Origin: Chloroflexota bacterium
Lineage (GTDB): Bacteria; Chloroflexota; Anaerolineae; UBA1429
Assembly: GCA_019873625.1 (NCBI GenBank)
Contig: JAIOAW010000016.1
Coordinates: 1-59,617 of the forward strand
Length of the DNA: 59,617 nucleotides
Direction of reading: 5' to 3'
The notes below the pieces were generated by a model. The model saw only the letters and a program-made list of their open reading frames with translations. It was not told where the DNA came from and did not search any database. A program made the position numbers and the translations under genes. Shown piece by piece: positions 13,696 to 20,617 of the stretch. Position 1 is the first letter of the stretch; each line of letters starts with the position of its first letter.

Positions 13696-15708
13696 TTATG
13701 ATTTTGTTATTGCCAAATGGTACATCGCCGGCTCCGCCGCCAAGGGCGTGGCGGCGGAAAGGATGAGGTACACGCTCTCCTGCCGAAGGGCGGAACCGGC
13801 TAGGAGCCACTCGGCGCGCGCCTCATCGCCGATCTCCAGCCGCTGAACCTGCAATCCGCCCCCTTCGCCGCGCCGGGCCATTTGCGCCAGGTAGCGCTGG
13901 GGTAGGCGATTCTCGATGCGCAGGAACCCCTCGGCGCGCCAGCCCTCCTCGCCCGCCTCCACGTCATCCGCCCAGCCGATGGCCTCTACGCGAACGTCAT
14001 CCAGGCACAGGCCGGCCCCGTGCACGGCGTCGTCCGTGATATAGTCGAACCGCAGGCGGATCACCTGCCCCGCAAAGCGGTCAAGCGGAACCTCCTCGGC
14101 GACCCACCCGCCGGAGGCACCCGTGTAACCCGGCCCCAGGGCATAGCCAGCCGCGCCGGGCGCGCGCATCGCGGGGGTGCGCAGGAGCGTCCACGTCTTC
14201 CCATCATCGGCGGAGGCGCGCAGGTAGGCGTAATCCCACCCCTCTTCGATATCGAACCAAACTTTGTACGAGAGCGTCGCTTCGCGCGCGGCGCGCAAAT
14301 CCAACGTCCTTTCGAGCGTGCTGTGGCCTTGATCTCCCTGGTTAGACCACCACATCCAGCGGCCGGAGGCGGCATCCGTGGGCACCAGGCGCGCCTCTGG
14401 CCGGCCTTGGAACGAAATGGTCAGGCCACCTTCCGGCAGGGGGAGTTCCCAACAGGCCGCGCCGTAAGGCTCGAGCGCCCCTTCCAAGGTAAAGGGATAC
14501 TCCTCCACCCTAGAGCAGGCCATCGGGGCCAGGCCCAGGCCGGGGTAGCCGTAGCGCCCGCCCTCTAGGAGGGGGATGTTCAACGCATTGGCGATGAGCC
14601 AATCGCCGAAAAAGGCGTCGAACGAGGTGGGCGGCTGAAAGCGTTCGAGGATGGCCTCAAACCCCGCCAGGCCATCGGCCGGTTCACGGGCGAGGTCGGC
14701 CAAGGCGCCTTCGCCGTAGCGCTGGGCCAGATAGCGCATCAGGAGATAGGCCGCGCCATAGTGCGCCTCGAGGTCGGCCGGCTCCACAGACCAATTCAGG
14801 GGCGCGATGTTCGGGTGGACCAAGTAGGCGCGCGCCGACTGGCTCTCCGCATAGCCGCTCCGCTCCTCGGCCAGTTCGCTCAACCCCTCGGTAACCCAGG
14901 CTTGCTCGTTGGCATCCAGGAGGCTCAAAAGCGCGTGCTGGAGTTCGTGCGCCAAGGTGGCCTCATAGGCGGCCGTGCCCGGCGCCAGGGTAGGGCAATT
15001 GATGACGATGGTCGGGCGCTCGTTGCTGAAGGGGTTGATGTTCCGGGGCAGGGCATTGAGGCTCAGATAATAGCCCAAGGCGCCCCGCACGCGCGCGTTC
15101 AAGATGGCCAAAGGGCAGCCGGCGAACGGATCTCGCCCCGCCAGGCCCAAAAGGGCGGTTACGGTGGGGTAGATGCGCTCTTCGAAAGCCTGGGCCGACC
15201 GCGCCAGGGCCTCCGCATCGGCCTCCAGGCCCTCTTCCAGCCAGAAGTGGGCGTGTGCCGTGGTCAAGATGAGCGTGGCCGTGATAGGCTCCCAGGTGGG
15301 GAAGGTATCTTCCACGTGCCCCACCCAGAAGGCATCCCGAGTTCCCAAGGGAGCGCCTCGGTTGCGGCAGAGCGCGCCCGCCGGGGGCGCCTCGCGCCCG
15401 AGGAATTCGCGCGCCAGGCGGGCCTCATCGCGCGGAGGCATAGGATGGGCCAAAAGATAGGCGATGGGGTCGCCGCCGCCCCGTGGCGTGGGCGTGGGGG
15501 CCAAAGAGGGCACCCAGGCCGTGGGCGAGGGGGATGGCAGGCCCCTAGCAGGGGTAGCGGGGGGCGCCGGCGTAGCCACCGCGGCCGTCGGCGGCGGGGC
15601 CGTGGCCCATAGCGCCTCGGCCGGCGGGGTGGCTCGCGCGCAGGCCACCCCCACAAGGATGCTCGCCAAAGTGCACAGGCCCCAAAGGGCGCGGCCTAGG
15701 CGCCTCAA
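13696..15708 (-). CDS. Secreted lipoprotein zinc metalloprotease, M6/immune-inhibitor-A-like
   Basis: About 670 residues. Signal: LRRLGRALWGLCTLASILVGVAC, shown here as Arg-rich start, hydrophobic core and a Cys near residue 23, a possible lipobox. A Pro/Thr/Ala-rich linker follows at about 25-80. The zinc motif HELQH is at about 252-256, with a downstream Glu in WVTEGLSELAEE (gluzincin pattern). The C terminus has jelly-roll domains (DDGKTWTLL, RLRFDYITDDAVHGAGLCLDDVRV) typical of M6 peptidases. TTG at 15708 is chosen because it overlaps the preceding stop as TTGA and opens directly on the signal peptide; ATG at 15747 is the alternative. It is the last gene of the radical SAM cassette operon. 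The final codons are AT-rich where the gene meets the foreign R-M island. Confidence 0.8.
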   Translation of the reverse strand: MRRLGRALWGLCTLASILVGVACARATPPAEALWATAPPPTAAVATPAPPATPARGLPSPSPTAWVPSLAPTPTPRGGGDPIAYLLAHPMPPRDEARLAREFLGREAPPAGALCRNRGAPLGTRDAFWVGHVEDTFPTWEPITATLILTTAHAHFWLEEGLEADAEALARSAQAFEERIYPTVTALLGLAGRDPFAGCPLAILNARVRGALGYYLSLNALPRNINPFSNERPTIVINCPTLAPGTAAYEATLAHELQHALLSLLDANEQAWVTEGLSELAEERSGYAESQSARAYLVHPNIAPLNWSVEPADLEAHYGAAYLLMRYLAQRYGEGALADLAREPADGLAGFEAILERFQPPTSFDAFFGDWLIANALNIPLLEGGRYGYPGLGLAPMACSRVEEYPFTLEGALEPYGAACWELPLPEGGLTISFQGRPEARLVPTDAASGRWMWWSNQGDQGHSTLERTLDLRAAREATLSYKVWFDIEEGWDYAYLRASADDGKTWTLLRTPAMRAPGAAGYALGPGYTGASGGWVAEEVPLDRFAGQVIRLRFDYITDDAVHGAGLCLDDVRVEAIGWADDVEAGEEGWRAEGFLRIENRLPQRYLAQMARRGEGGGLQVQRLEIGDEARAEWLLAGSALRQESVYLILSAATPLAAEPAMYHLAITKS

Positions 15709-16196
15709 GTCTTGGTGATTTCGAGTTGGGCGCCGCAGTTTGGGCATTTGCGCACGGCCTGGCGAAGGGGAAGTTCGGTGCCGCAGTAAGGGCACACCTT
15801 GCGCGCCAGCGAAGGCTGCAACCCTTTGAAGACGTAGACGATGCGCTCAGCGCGCTGTTCGCGCTGGCAGGTGCCCTCCGCCGCCAGCCCCTCGAGCGTC
15901 TTGAGCGCCAAGTTCTGGGGGATGCGGAATTCGGCGCGCAGTTGGGCCACGGTGAGTTCCCCGCCCAGGCGTTGGGCGAGTTCCACCGCGCCGGTGCGCA
16001 GGGCCTCATCGCTCAGGGCGGCCAACCGGCGCAATCTCCCCAGCCCCCACAGGAGAAGGGCCAGGCCCACGGCCCCAAAGGCCAGGGCCACCCAAAAGCG
16101 GCTGGGCACCGAAGAGGCCGCGATGAGGAAGAGCAGCCCCAGGGTGAGGAATGGGACGGAAGCGAGGGTGATAAGGATGGCACCGAATTTTCTCAT
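15705..16196 (-). CDS. Membrane protein with winged-helix-like segment and C-terminal zinc ribbon
   Basis: 163 residues. Two hydrophobic segments at about 5-27 and 34-53, then a cytoplasmic helical/winged-helix-like part (ELTVAQLRAEFRIPQNLALKTLEGLAAEG), then a zinc ribbon with CPYC and CPNC pairs at the end. The family is not recognised. ATG at 16196 after AAGGGAG. It lies 33 bases after the coiled-coil gene and overlaps the protease start as TTGA, so it belongs to the radical SAM cassette. It may be a small membrane sensor or a metal-binding partner of the Cys/His-tailed protein; that is inference. Confidence 0.75.
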   Translation of the reverse strand: MRKFGAILITLASVPFLTLGLLFLIAASSVPSRFWVALAFGAVGLALLLWGLGRLRRLAALSDEALRTGAVELAQRLGGELTVAQLRAEFRIPQNLALKTLEGLAAEGTCQREQRAERIVYVFKGLQPSLARKVCPYCGTELPLRQAVRKCPNCGAQLEITKT

Positions 16197-16229: not shown

Positions 16230-17417
16230 CTATCCCCAGGCCTTGGTGGCCTCGTTGAGGGCGTTCCCCATACCCTCAAAGAAGGCCTGAATGGTCTCGT
16301 TCGGAAGGCGCCCTATGACCTCCTCGCGGGCCAAGCGGATGAATTCCAGGGGATTGGCCCCCAAATAACGCTCGTCTTTGACCTTCTGGCGCAAGTCGGC
16401 CCACAGAGCATTGACGTTGACCGCCTGCTCGGGCACCGGCACCTGGACGGGCTTGAGGTTGTAACGCCGCTGTTCGGCGAGGACCTTGCCCACGCTTTGC
16501 GTAAAGCGATCCAGGCCGTTCGAAAGGCCCTTGAGAAGGCCCAGCGCCTCAGCGATGGCTTGCAAGCCCTCTTCAAAGGAGCGGCGCACGGCGTTATGCC
16601 ACGCCAACTCGGCGAGTTTTTCGCCCAATTCGCCGGGCACAGTGTACATCTCCGTCATCTCCTGCAAGGCGCGTTGGAGGCCAGCCTCTTCGGCGAGTTC
16701 CTTCAAGTGCCCGGATAGGTAATCTCGTTGGCCCTGTGCTTCGGCCAGGCGCACGCTCGTCTTTTGCCACTCCTCGCGCCAGGTGGATTGCTTTTCGGCG
16801 GTGGCCTGAACCGTGTCGGTCCACTCTTTGCGCACCGCGCGCAGGGCTTTGAGGGCCTCGGCCTGCTGTTGTTTGATCGTCTTTTGCAGGGCGCGCAGAC
16901 GGCGGATGCGCCCAATATGGCGCAAGGCCCCCAGCGCCCCCTGCCGCAGGGCCTCTTCCTCCTCAAAGGCACGGGTAAACTCCTCCTGGAGTTGGGCCAC
17001 GCGCGCCTTGAGTTCCTCCTCGCGGGCATTCAGGGAGGGGTTCGCGGCGCGCATCGCCTGGGCAGCCTTTTGGGCGCGTTGGGTCAGGCCATCGGCGATT
17101 TGGCGCTTTTCGGCAATCTCCCGATAGAGCGCCTCGATTTCCCCACGGATGCGCGCCTCTTCCTCGGCCTCGAGGCGATCCAAGTAGGCTTGCAGGTCGG
17201 CCGGGAGATTGCGCCGCTCGGCCTTGACGCGCGGGTAGCAGAAGGTGAACAGGTCTTGCCAGATGACCAATTCCTCTTGAAAGGCCTTGCGAAAGCGCGC
17301 CTCGATTTCAGAAATCTCTTGGATGCAGGCCTCCAACTCGGCGCGCTTATCCGTGAGGTATTTGTGGAACTGGGCCAACGTCATCCGGTACACTCGCGGG
17401 CGGGATACCTTGGTCAT
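16230..17417 (-). CDS. Uncharacterised long coiled-coil protein
   Basis: 395 residues, no signal peptide or membrane segment. Heptad-rich, charged helices run from about 10 to 260 (Glu, Lys, Arg, Ala and Gln rich), followed by a less regular C-terminal 130 residues. No catalytic motif was seen. The ATG at 17417 overlaps the radical SAM stop as ATGA, so it is translated with that enzyme; a scaffolding or TerA/PspA-like structural role is possible but unsupported. I do not recognise the family. Confidence 0.75.
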   Translation of the reverse strand: MTKVSRPRVYRMTLAQFHKYLTDKRAELEACIQEISEIEARFRKAFQEELVIWQDLFTFCYPRVKAERRNLPADLQAYLDRLEAEEEARIRGEIEALYREIAEKRQIADGLTQRAQKAAQAMRAANPSLNAREEELKARVAQLQEEFTRAFEEEEALRQGALGALRHIGRIRRLRALQKTIKQQQAEALKALRAVRKEWTDTVQATAEKQSTWREEWQKTSVRLAEAQGQRDYLSGHLKELAEEAGLQRALQEMTEMYTVPGELGEKLAELAWHNAVRRSFEEGLQAIAEALGLLKGLSNGLDRFTQSVGKVLAEQRRYNLKPVQVPVPEQAVNVNALWADLRQKVKDERYLGANPLEFIRLAREEVIGRLPNETIQAFFEGMGNALNEATKAWG

Positions 17418-18871
17418 GCGGTCTTTTCTCCCTCTTCGGGCGCGGCGCTAAAACGCCCGCGCAGGCCAACCCCCCAAGTGTGAGACCAAAGGGCCTTTTT
17501 GGCGCGCCAGACCATCGCCCCCCAGGGCGTGCCCCCCGGCGCAAAGGGGCGCAACTCGTCAAAGGAGCGGCGCTCATCCCAGTAGAGGGGGCAGGCGCCG
17601 CAACAGATATCGCGGATCTCGCAATGCTGGCACACGGGCGGGATGAATTCTTTGCCGCGCCAATAGCGCGCCGTGCGCGAGAACCAGACATCCGCAAACG
17701 GCCTGTGCAACAGGTCGCCGATGCCCCGCTCGAAACTGGAGCAGGGCAAGAGTTCCCCCGCTGGGTTCACGGAGATGAGGCCATCTACACAGGCGCATGA
17801 TTTCGACCCCAACCCCGCCTGGACGGGGTTGAACATACAGTAGGGCACGGGCGAATACCACACCAGGCGCACGCCCTTGGCCTGGGCGCGCTCCTGCACC
17901 TGGGTGATGAGGGAGCCGATCTCGCGGTAGGCGATATCGTCTTTAGGGGAGGTGAGCGCCGTGCCCGTGCGGATGACCATATTCATCGAAAAGTATTGGG
18001 AATGGAGTTCGTCGGCGATGAAATCCACCAGTTCGAGCAGATGGTCGCGGTTGCCACCGCAGATGGTCGTGTTCGTGTGGGTGTGGATGCCCGCCTCTCT
18101 CAGGCGGTACACGGCCCGCACGGTGAGTTCCCAGGAGCCGGGGTGCTGAGTGATGGCATCGTGCACGGCGGCGGAGCCGCCCTCCAGGCTCACCTGGGCC
18201 GATTCCAGCCCCGCCTCGGCGAGGCGCGCGACGTATTCCGCATCGGCGCAGCGCAGGCCGTTCGTAATCAGGTTGACGCGCAAGCCCTTCTCGCGCCCGT
18301 AGGCGATGAGTTCGGGGAGGTCCTCCCGCAATGTCGGCTCGCCGCCCGTGAACGAGAGTGTGGGGCAGTGGGCCTCATCGGCGATGCGATCTATGATGAT
18401 TTTGACCTCTTCGGTGGTCATCTCGCGCACGGCGCGTCCCCGGCGGGGGGCATCGGCATAGCAAAAGGTGCAGCGGTTTTGGCAGCGGTAGGTCAGGGCA
18501 ATTTCCGAAAGGACGGGCAATTCGCGTTTGTGGCTGCCGAATGGCGTGATGCGCACGGCCGTTACCTCGCGCCAATCATCCTGCAAGAGGCCGTTCAAAC
18601 TGCGCAGGAGGGCGATTATGTCCTCGCGGACGCGTTCCGGCTCCACGTGGTAGCGCTCGGCCGTTTCGGCCAAGATGGCCGGCACATCCACCTGCGGGCG
18701 ATTGTAGAGGCGGTCTAGGATAAAGAGCGCCGTCTCGTTCAGGTGATGCAGACGGTTGGGCCGCAGGATAATCAGCCGATCCTCCGGGCGGATGTAGATG
18801 ATATTCCGCGTGGAGGCGACAAAGGTCGCGGCGAACTGTTGCAAATCAAGCGGTTGGGCGCGTTCTTCCAT
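17414..18871 (-). CDS. PqqD-radical SAM-SPASM peptide-modifying enzyme
   Basis: 485 residues. Residues about 25-100 are PqqD-like (RPNRLHHLNETALFILDRL), the fold that binds the leader or target segment of ribosomal peptides. The radical SAM 4Fe-4S motif is Cys130, Cys134, Cys137 (CX3CX2C in YRCQNRCTFCYA); FTGGEP binds SAM; the C terminus is a Cys-rich SPASM domain (CACVDGLISVNPAGELLPC, later CQHC, CCGAC). Enzymes of this type form thioether or carbon-carbon links in peptides. It starts nine bases after the stop of the gene whose product ends in a 12-Cys ACHS-repeat tail, which is the obvious candidate substrate. It overlaps the coiled-coil gene by four bases. Confidence 0.92.
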   Translation of the reverse strand: MEERAQPLDLQQFAATFVASTRNIIYIRPEDRLIILRPNRLHHLNETALFILDRLYNRPQVDVPAILAETAERYHVEPERVREDIIALLRSLNGLLQDDWREVTAVRITPFGSHKRELPVLSEIALTYRCQNRCTFCYADAPRRGRAVREMTTEEVKIIIDRIADEAHCPTLSFTGGEPTLREDLPELIAYGREKGLRVNLITNGLRCADAEYVARLAEAGLESAQVSLEGGSAAVHDAITQHPGSWELTVRAVYRLREAGIHTHTNTTICGGNRDHLLELVDFIADELHSQYFSMNMVIRTGTALTSPKDDIAYREIGSLITQVQERAQAKGVRLVWYSPVPYCMFNPVQAGLGSKSCACVDGLISVNPAGELLPCSSFERGIGDLLHRPFADVWFSRTARYWRGKEFIPPVCQHCEIRDICCGACPLYWDERRSFDELRPFAPGGTPWGAMVWRAKKALWSHTWGVGLRGRFSAAPEEGEKTA

Positions 18872-18880
18872 CGGTGGCCC

Positions 18881-20617
18881 CTAAAAGCGGCTCACGCAGG
18901 CCGAGTGGCAGGCGCTGTGGCACGCGCTGTGCACGCAGGCCGAATGGCACGCCGAATGACACGCGTCATGCACGCAGGCCGAGTGGCAGGCATCGTGCAC
19001 GCAGGCCGAATGGCAAGCCGAGTGGCAGGCGCTGTGGCAGGCATCTCGCCCGCCTTCGCCGCCCAAGGCGCGCTGCACGCCCTGCTCGATGCGCTCCACC
19101 GTGCCCGTCATCACCTCTTCGATGGAGCGCGTCAAGTCGCCGGCCATCCGTTCTAGGGGCGCCACGGCCTCTTCGGCGGCCCGTGCCAAAGGCCCTGGGC
19201 CGGCAGGCCCGCCCACGGTGGCCGTGCTGCCGCCCTCGCGCGCCCAACGATCGGAAAGGATGATCCAAGGGATGTAGTTGGGCATACGCGCAGGCTGGGG
19301 GCGGTTGCGGTATTCGCGTTCGTATTCATCCCAGGCCGATTCGATGCGGCGCTGATAGGTTTCTCGCGTGGCCTGGGGGTCGGCGTTCCACATCTTGGGC
19401 TGGACGGCGCTGGACACGGCCTCCAAAATGGCCGGAATCTTGCTGCGGTCTATCGTGCCATCCTCTTGGATGGCCCCGAGGAGGGCCTTCTCATAAGGCG
19501 CGGTGGCGCCGGCCTCGTTGAGGACCTCCATCTGCAGGGGGTGACGGTTCACGATGTTCACCACGCCCTTTTGCTCTAAACCGAGCACGATGAGCGCGAT
19601 GGTCTTGGTGGAGTTGCCCATCACAAAGGCCGTCTCGATGGCGTTCAGGTCGGGCACCACGCCAGGCGTCTGGAAGGTCTCCACCTCGATTTCGGGCGGC
19701 TCGTAGATGGGCTTGGGCTTGCGTTTGCGCATAGCCAAGATCATCAAAAAGAGTACGCCAAGCGTGATAAAGATGCCTGTGCAAAGGGTCAGGGGGCTGG
19801 TAAAGATGGCGCGCACCGTGCCGATGAAATCCACGGGCCGCGGCGTGGCCTGTGGCGTGGGCGTGTAAAGGGGGATGGGCGTCTCTTGGGTGGTGGTGAT
19901 GGCCGAGGCGGGCAAAAAGAACTGCGGCACCATGCTCGTCTCGGGTGGGAGATTGTTCTTGGCCACAAAGATGGAGAGCCATACCTTGCCCGTCTTTTCA
20001 TCGGGCGTGGGGAAATAGACCCAACGGTCAAAGGCATCGGCATTGTTCACGATGAGGCCCGTTTTTTGGACGATATCGTCCGTCACTTGCTCGGGCTGGG
20101 TGATGTTCGCGGGGAGTTCGATGGGCAAAATGTAGCGAATCTCTTGGCGCACGATGGGCAAGGCCCACTCAAAGGGCGCCCAGCCGATGGCGCGGTAGGG
20201 CTGGCCGTTGTAGGTGGTTGGGTCGAACACGGAGCGATCCACCGTGTAGCGCACTTGGATGGTGTACTGTTCGTTGCGGCGGGTGTTCGTGCCAAAGCGC
20301 ACCTCGTAAAACTCGGGGCCGCCGCTCAGGGTGACCTTGAACTCCCCCTGCGGCCCCTGGCCGCTGGCCGAGATGATGGTATGTGGCCTTGGGAAAGGCC
20401 CCATCTGGCGGATGCGGTCGCGCCCCGCCTCCAGTTCGGTGAAGGTGAGGGTGTAGCGCACGTCTAAACGGCCATCGTTCAGGATGACGACGTAGGCATC
20501 CACCTTGTCGAGGCGGACGGGATCCCCTTGCGCCTGGGCTGGGCCAAGGCCCCACCCGGCCGCCCAAAGGGCGAGCGCTACGAGTAGAATGCCCAGCACA
20601 CAGTAAAAGCGTCTCAT
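18881..20617 (-). CDS. DUF2207-type membrane protein with C-terminal 12-Cys ACHS repeat tail
   Basis: 578 residues. Signal peptide about 1-29 (ends AQA), an extracytoplasmic beta-rich DUF2207-like domain about 32-245, a Thr/Pro linker, a membrane segment about 275-296, then RKRKPKP, implying that the rest is cytoplasmic. Residues 320-440 form a helical, winged-helix-like region; an amphipathic helix at 477-518 precedes the tail. The last 54 residues (525-578) are eight ACHS units mixed with ACVHD/ACVHS units: 12 Cys and 11 His, Cys spacing 4 or 5, each Cys preceded by Ala. ATG at 20617 after AAGGAG overlaps the glycosyltransferase stop as ATGA. The next gene is a PqqD-radical SAM enzyme. Cys-rich low-complexity tails are known on some DUF2207/TIGR04222-type proteins; this CHSA form is unfamiliar to me. 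Confidence 0.85.
   Translation of the reverse strand: MRRFYCVLGILLVALALWAAGWGLGPAQAQGDPVRLDKVDAYVVILNDGRLDVRYTLTFTELEAGRDRIRQMGPFPRPHTIISASGQGPQGEFKVTLSGGPEFYEVRFGTNTRRNEQYTIQVRYTVDRSVFDPTTYNGQPYRAIGWAPFEWALPIVRQEIRYILPIELPANITQPEQVTDDIVQKTGLIVNNADAFDRWVYFPTPDEKTGKVWLSIFVAKNNLPPETSMVPQFFLPASAITTTQETPIPLYTPTPQATPRPVDFIGTVRAIFTSPLTLCTGIFITLGVLFLMILAMRKRKPKPIYEPPEIEVETFQTPGVVPDLNAIETAFVMGNSTKTIALIVLGLEQKGVVNIVNRHPLQMEVLNEAGATAPYEKALLGAIQEDGTIDRSKIPAILEAVSSAVQPKMWNADPQATRETYQRRIESAWDEYEREYRNRPQPARMPNYIPWIILSDRWAREGGSTATVGGPAGPGPLARAAEEAVAPLERMAGDLTRSIEEVMTGTVERIEQGVQRALGGEGGRDACHSACHSACHSACVHDACHSACVHDACHSACHSACVHSACHSACHSACVSRF
18884..19045 (-). repeat. In-frame 12/15-bp tandem repeat encoding the ACHS tail
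   Basis: About twelve units of 12 bp (Ala-Cys-His-Ser) or 15 bp (Ala-Cys-Val-His-Asp/Ser). The codons for Ser (AGC/TCG), His (CAC/CAT), Cys (TGC/TGT) and Ala vary between units while the amino acids stay fixed, so the repeat appears to be maintained at protein level. Confidence 0.9.

Follow-up and report, generated by a model that had tools for sequence, protein, structure and literature searches.

Genes and features of the locus

The window, the whole 59,617-nucleotide stretch that was analysed, comes from a Chloroflexota genome of 2.76 Mb, assigned to Anaerolineae through its relatives. It holds a membrane protein gene with a Cys/His-rich 3' end, followed by a radical SAM enzyme gene and by further genes in the same direction:

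18881..20617, minus strand: membrane protein, 578 aa (reading frame, profile matches, structure model, charge pattern)
Membrane protein aa 1-27 (N-terminus): hydrophobic signal/anchor
Membrane protein, about aa 34-236: extracellular beta domain
19730..19786, minus strand: transmembrane segment, aa 278-296, then RKRKPKP; by the positive-inside pattern the tail is predicted cytoplasmic
Membrane protein, about aa 325-438: TIGR04222-like cytoplasmic domain
Membrane protein, aa 476-517: long amphipathic helix ahead of the Cys/His tail
18884..19045, minus strand: 54-residue tail of ACHS and ACVH repeats with 12 Cys and 11 His (sequence)
17414..18871, minus strand: radical SAM enzyme, 485 aa, with PqqD, radical SAM and SPASM domains
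18596..18772, minus strand: PqqD-like peptide-recognition domain (PF05402), aa 34-92, 41 bits against a cut-off of 23.4
18461..18484, minus strand: CQNRCTFC, the CX3CX2C radical SAM cluster motif, aa 130-137 (C130, C134, C137)
17591..17797, minus strand: SPASM cysteines C359, C377, C414, C417, C423 and C427, with C345 upstream
16230..17417, minus strand: coiled-coil protein, 395 aa, third gene of the operon, overlapping the enzyme gene by 4 nt
15705..16196, minus strand: small membrane protein whose C-terminus carries a zinc ribbon; CACA clusters and Thorarchaeota have counterparts
13696..15795, minus strand: secreted InhA-like/MAM metalloprotease-like protein, an accessory gene missing from other loci

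Translation confirms the tail reported in a preliminary description of this DNA. The last 54 residues of the membrane protein read DACHSACHSACHSACVHDACHSACVHDACHSACHSACVHSACHSACHSACVSRF. Only 2 cysteines occur in the other 524 residues, and the probability of 12 or more in 54 residues at 1% Cys is about 2e-13. The tail had been placed in the cytoplasm behind a single membrane segment. The predicted location agrees with positive-inside charges across the family: a lysine/arginine-rich stretch follows the membrane segment in nearly all members, and the tail is predicted to be cytoplasmic with the N-terminal segment either removed or kept. The segment at aa 278-296 with its RKRKPKP also stands, but the N-terminal hydrophobic stretch makes ‘single’ true only if that stretch is removed.

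The same description called the protein DUF2207/TIGR04222-like. There is weak similarity to both families, under both cut-offs: 30.8 bits (E 2e-7) to TIGR04222 (NCBIfam; curated cut-off 43 bits) and 16 bits to DUF2207 (PF09972; gathering cut-off 24.4). We keep the label as a weak one. DUF2207 matches at E 0.1 occur in 6 of 20 family members (best E 1.8e-5), and a second kind of tailed protein described below, as encoded at locus L050, has no TIGR04222 match at E 0.01. A sequence search of solved structures with the window protein gave no match. Its structure model has a mean pLDDT of 65 and a pTM of 0.42, with the tail below pLDDT 50. The folds that match the model, aminopeptidase and OST beta domains, span little of it and were not used for function.

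The enzyme's start codon lies 9 nt after the membrane protein gene (gap 18872-18880). The PqqD, CX3CX2C and SPASM assignments made earlier hold, through the motif and through profile matches above cut-off; SPASM scores 27.1 bits (cut-off 21.5) and Radical_SAM 106 bits. Across 20 aligned family members, the CX3CX2C cysteines are invariant, as are 7 cysteines of the SPASM region, including CX2CX5CX3C. Among solved structures, those nearest to the predicted one (pTM 0.75) are SkfB and SuiB, both peptide maturases, and CteB ranks only a little lower. Its best family scores are to AhbD and NirJ2, though far below cut-off: the AhbD/NirJ heme families (TIGR04545, TIGR04055) give 134 and 127 bits under cut-offs of 500. 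TIGR04340, the enzyme of the ACGX system, gives 106 bits under a cut-off of 400. The genome has 22 Radical_SAM matches, one of which is this enzyme. An anti-phage role was considered and rejected, the PADLOC matches being to the generic radical SAM core of viperins.

Tail and enzyme across genomes

We scanned 400 Chloroflexota genomes for the codon pattern of the tail, and those 400 plus 148 Asgard genomes with a profile of the enzyme. The tails are of two types, ACHS repeats and CACACACAGCACACAGGGR (CACA type), and each type is found in both Chloroflexota and Asgard archaea. CACA tails lack His.

The profile search found 31 family members in 30 of the 400 Chloroflexota genomes; it also matched a single degenerate paralogue. 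Every one of the 31 adjoins a Cys-tailed TIGR04222-like membrane protein, with an ACHS tail in 4 cases and CACACACAGCACACAGGGR or a close form in 27. The ACHS codon pattern occurs in 4 of the 400 genomes, exactly those with a clade-A enzyme; a reversed control pattern matched 1 unrelated genome. The preliminary description had said that its proposal would fail if many genomes had such tails with no radical SAM gene beside them; a search of the 400 for this found no such pattern.

The enzyme occurs in 58 of the 148 Asgard genomes. An ACHS-tailed protein is present in 19 of 20 Thorarchaeota genomes examined, and the gene is interrupted in the other (G402). At that locus (L012:2300-3400), about 90 residues of the membrane protein are encoded before the gene breaks off, and the next reading frame is recombinase-like. 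Linked clade-B loci carry a CACA tail in 20 of 20 cases. Five Asgard genomes have an enzyme that does not adjoin a tail gene. Unlinked pairs still share a genome, 7.5 kb apart in G459 and on different contigs in G436 and G457; in three of the five, the draft genomes G444, G463 and G469, the tail protein was not found.

Several other matches were set aside. Sixteen stretches of viral contigs matched the ACHS codon pattern, none being an in-frame tail on a relative of either protein, and the CACA pattern had no match in viral contigs. A Clostridia enzyme (L018, 26% identity) and those of L019 and L168/L169 (28%) are more distant radical SAM enzymes outside the family; L168/L169 have no tail protein nearby. 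A match in G115 was attributed to chance. Genome G255 has a short TIGR04222-like paralogue without a Cys tail (L043:5794-6504), which adjoins another zinc-ribbon membrane protein and has no radical SAM neighbour.

The ACHS tail is near-invariant in Chloroflexota and in the 19 Thorarchaeota genomes. Over the last 48 residues of 12 Thorarchaeota loci, 1.0% of amino-acid comparisons differ, against 59.1% synonymous codon differences. The corresponding values are 1.2% and 43.3% for five Chloroflexota ACHS loci, and 4.2% and 44.1% for a form of the tail with extra Cys at four further Chloroflexota loci. Chloroflexota CACA tails show 0.00% and 54.7%. Amino acids that barely differ alongside so many synonymous changes mark the tail as being under extreme purifying selection. 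Overall identity between the window membrane protein and its Thorarchaeota counterparts falls to about 26-29% while the tail holds, so selection acts on the tail itself.

On a maximum-likelihood tree of 83 enzymes, made by a quick search and with some long branches and weak outgroup placement, the enzymes separate by the tail they are paired with: one clade, from Chloroflexota and Thorarchaeota, has ACHS partners, and another, from Chloroflexota and other Asgard archaea, has CACA partners. Tail type requires 1 change on this tree and domain of life requires 2. One genome, G011, carries both systems, and each tail there adjoins an enzyme of its own clade. Nothing else argues as strongly for recognition of the tail by the enzyme as this co-variation of tail type with enzyme clade.

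The other genes of the clusters vary by type. The coiled-coil and zinc-ribbon genes follow the enzyme in the window, in the same direction, and then comes the metalloprotease-like gene; the coiled-coil gene is kept in Chloroflexota ACHS loci, and the metalloprotease-like gene is downstream in 7 of them. Of the CACA stretches read, 6 of 8 from Chloroflexota and 24 of 25 from Asgard archaea encode a SAM-dependent methyltransferase (examples adjoining the enzyme are L050:9948-10709 and L153:4252-4977). A second PqqD-containing radical SAM homologue without CX3CX2C is present in 7 of 8 Chloroflexota CACA stretches (L050:8789-9943, L042:9646-10797 and others); it is probably a non-catalytic partner and perhaps presents the substrate. 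Close to the radical SAM gene, Thorarchaeota clusters encode an alanine-racemase/D-serine-dehydratase-like PLP enzyme (L010:7981-9102). A small zinc-ribbon membrane protein is encoded in all three cluster types (window 15705-16196; L042:6103-6480; L010:9154-9864), and profile comparison (94% and 97%) suggests that these proteins have parts in common. The gene contents of the clusters showed no peptidase or exporter conserved across the ACHS type, the CACA type or the archaeal clusters.

Proposed mechanism and alternatives

The earlier proposal that the enzyme acts on the tail now has strong comparative-genomic support in linkage, co-variation, unlinked co-occurrence and purifying selection. 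We think it probable, judging from sequence comparison, that the two proteins are a substrate–maturase pair in which the enzyme modifies tail cysteines, most likely by cross-linking, and the tail stays attached to the membrane. From these patterns we infer the modification, its chemistry, the membrane retention and the function.

In the proposed mechanism, a single transmembrane segment would anchor the membrane protein so that its Cys-rich tail lies on the cytoplasmic side. The enzyme would bind the stretch preceding the tail through its PqqD domain and would repeatedly install a bond or oxidation on the tail cysteines. Maturases of sactipeptides and ranthipeptides make cysteine thioether cross-links, and by analogy these would be the most likely bonds. 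Once finished, the tail would probably stay on the protein and form a rigid, modified Cys/His module that may bind metal or serve in redox reactions. Release as a free peptide is improbable because the pair lacks a conserved leader protease or exporter alongside it. A broader statement has about an even chance of being right: a membrane-anchored protein would have its cytoplasmic C-terminal repeat stitched covalently into a Cys(-His) module that is never released, in ACHS and CACA variants each common to Chloroflexota and Asgard archaea, with radical SAM chemistry serving in-place protein architecture and not a released peptide.

Parts of the evidence also fit other explanations. Close linkage also fits an enzyme that acts elsewhere on the membrane protein, and Cys and His could likewise be kept this strictly in a tail that binds metal without being modified. 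The tail could then be a metal- or cluster-binding module while the enzyme targets another residue or substrate. The regular spacing of Cys and His suits metal binding and zinc-ribbon membrane proteins are encoded in every cluster type, but tail type and enzyme clade change together, within G011 too, the PqqD domain indicates that the substrate is a peptide, and with His absent from CACA tails a common metal site is not obvious. We regard this explanation as unlikely. Marginally less probable still is a membrane-carried RiPP whose modified tail is later cut off and exported, the membrane protein being an unusually long leader and carrier. An invariant C-terminal block behind a helix and a variable linker does resemble a leader plus core, and the secreted metalloprotease-like gene is next in the 7 Chloroflexota ACHS loci. 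However, that gene is missing elsewhere and the membrane would separate its secreted product from a cytoplasmic tail, and no conserved peptidase or exporter was found across the two tail types or the archaeal clusters.

The AhbD and NirJ2 scores raise a third alternative, in which the enzyme builds a heme- or tetrapyrrole-like cofactor, or attaches one, and the tail is its attachment or delivery site. Those scores are the top ones, but at 127-134 bits they fall far short of the cut-offs of 500; the PqqD fusion speaks for a peptide as substrate, and peptide maturases come closest to the predicted fold. We give this explanation very little weight. A tail this repetitive might also be a functionless low-complexity product of chance or slippage. 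That idea has practically no probability and is refuted by amino acids that stay near-invariant in two domains of life while their synonymous codons have turned over.

Relation to described systems

The individual parts of the proposed substrate–maturase pair resemble known kinds, namely SPASM RiPP maturases, TIGR04222 proteins and CXXX-repeat targets. The enzyme shares domain order and predicted fold with the SPASM maturases SkfB, CteB, PapB and SuiB (sactipeptide, ranthipeptide and related). The known substrates of those enzymes are short precursor peptides, whereas here the candidate substrate is the C-terminus of a full membrane protein. CXXX- and ACGX-repeat systems (TIGR04117, TIGR04340) likewise combine four-residue Cys repeats with a radical SAM/SPASM enzyme, and their targets are small peptides. 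Neither the present tail nor the enzyme reaches the cut-off of these families; the tail scores 7.1 bits against TIGR04117, the CXXX-repeat target (E 5.7, cut-off 50), which is chance level. Successive repeated tetrapeptides of a precursor are modified by the radical SAM enzyme TvgB (PMC9062424), a precedent for the repeated action proposed here. The TvgA/TvgB system is alike in its successive four-residue repeats, but the repeat is TVGG, on a precursor peptide, and the product is cyclopropylglycine, with no cysteine involved (PMC9062424).

Our literature search for ACGX repeats, CXXX repeats or DUF2207 with radical SAM enzymes found none; TIGR04222 appears in 2 papers. We found no account of the pairing in open papers or family libraries, the range of the search. 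The locus suggests that a protein tail may be chemically stitched where it stands, by a route not yet described. The pairing joins three loose ends: TIGR04222-like Cys-tailed proteins so far without an assigned purpose, repeat-type radical SAM targets that are known mainly as family models, and unexplored Asgard post-translational chemistry. Two tails that are nearly letter-identical across domains, each with its own enzyme clade, make an unusually clean enzyme–substrate prediction. If the tail does stay on the membrane, radical SAM peptide chemistry would have a wider purpose.

A further closely related arrangement involves MNIO enzymes, for which TIGR04222 proteins with Cys-rich tails are described as candidate substrates (PMC12452194). 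As portrayed there, those systems also have a TIGR04222-like membrane protein, a Cys-rich low-complexity C-terminus and an adjoining modifying enzyme. There, the enzyme is an MNIO and the tails are Ser/Gly-rich with Cys and predicted to be periplasmic; here the enzyme is a radical SAM/SPASM protein and the tail is predicted to be cytoplasmic. The passages of PMC12452194 consulted do not mention a radical SAM pairing. The MNIO family (PF05114) has no member in the window genome (G000) or in its ACHS relatives G136 and G382, and we reject MNIO as the modifier for the ACHS type on that ground. PF05114 does occur in 3 of 15 system-bearing genomes, on other contigs.
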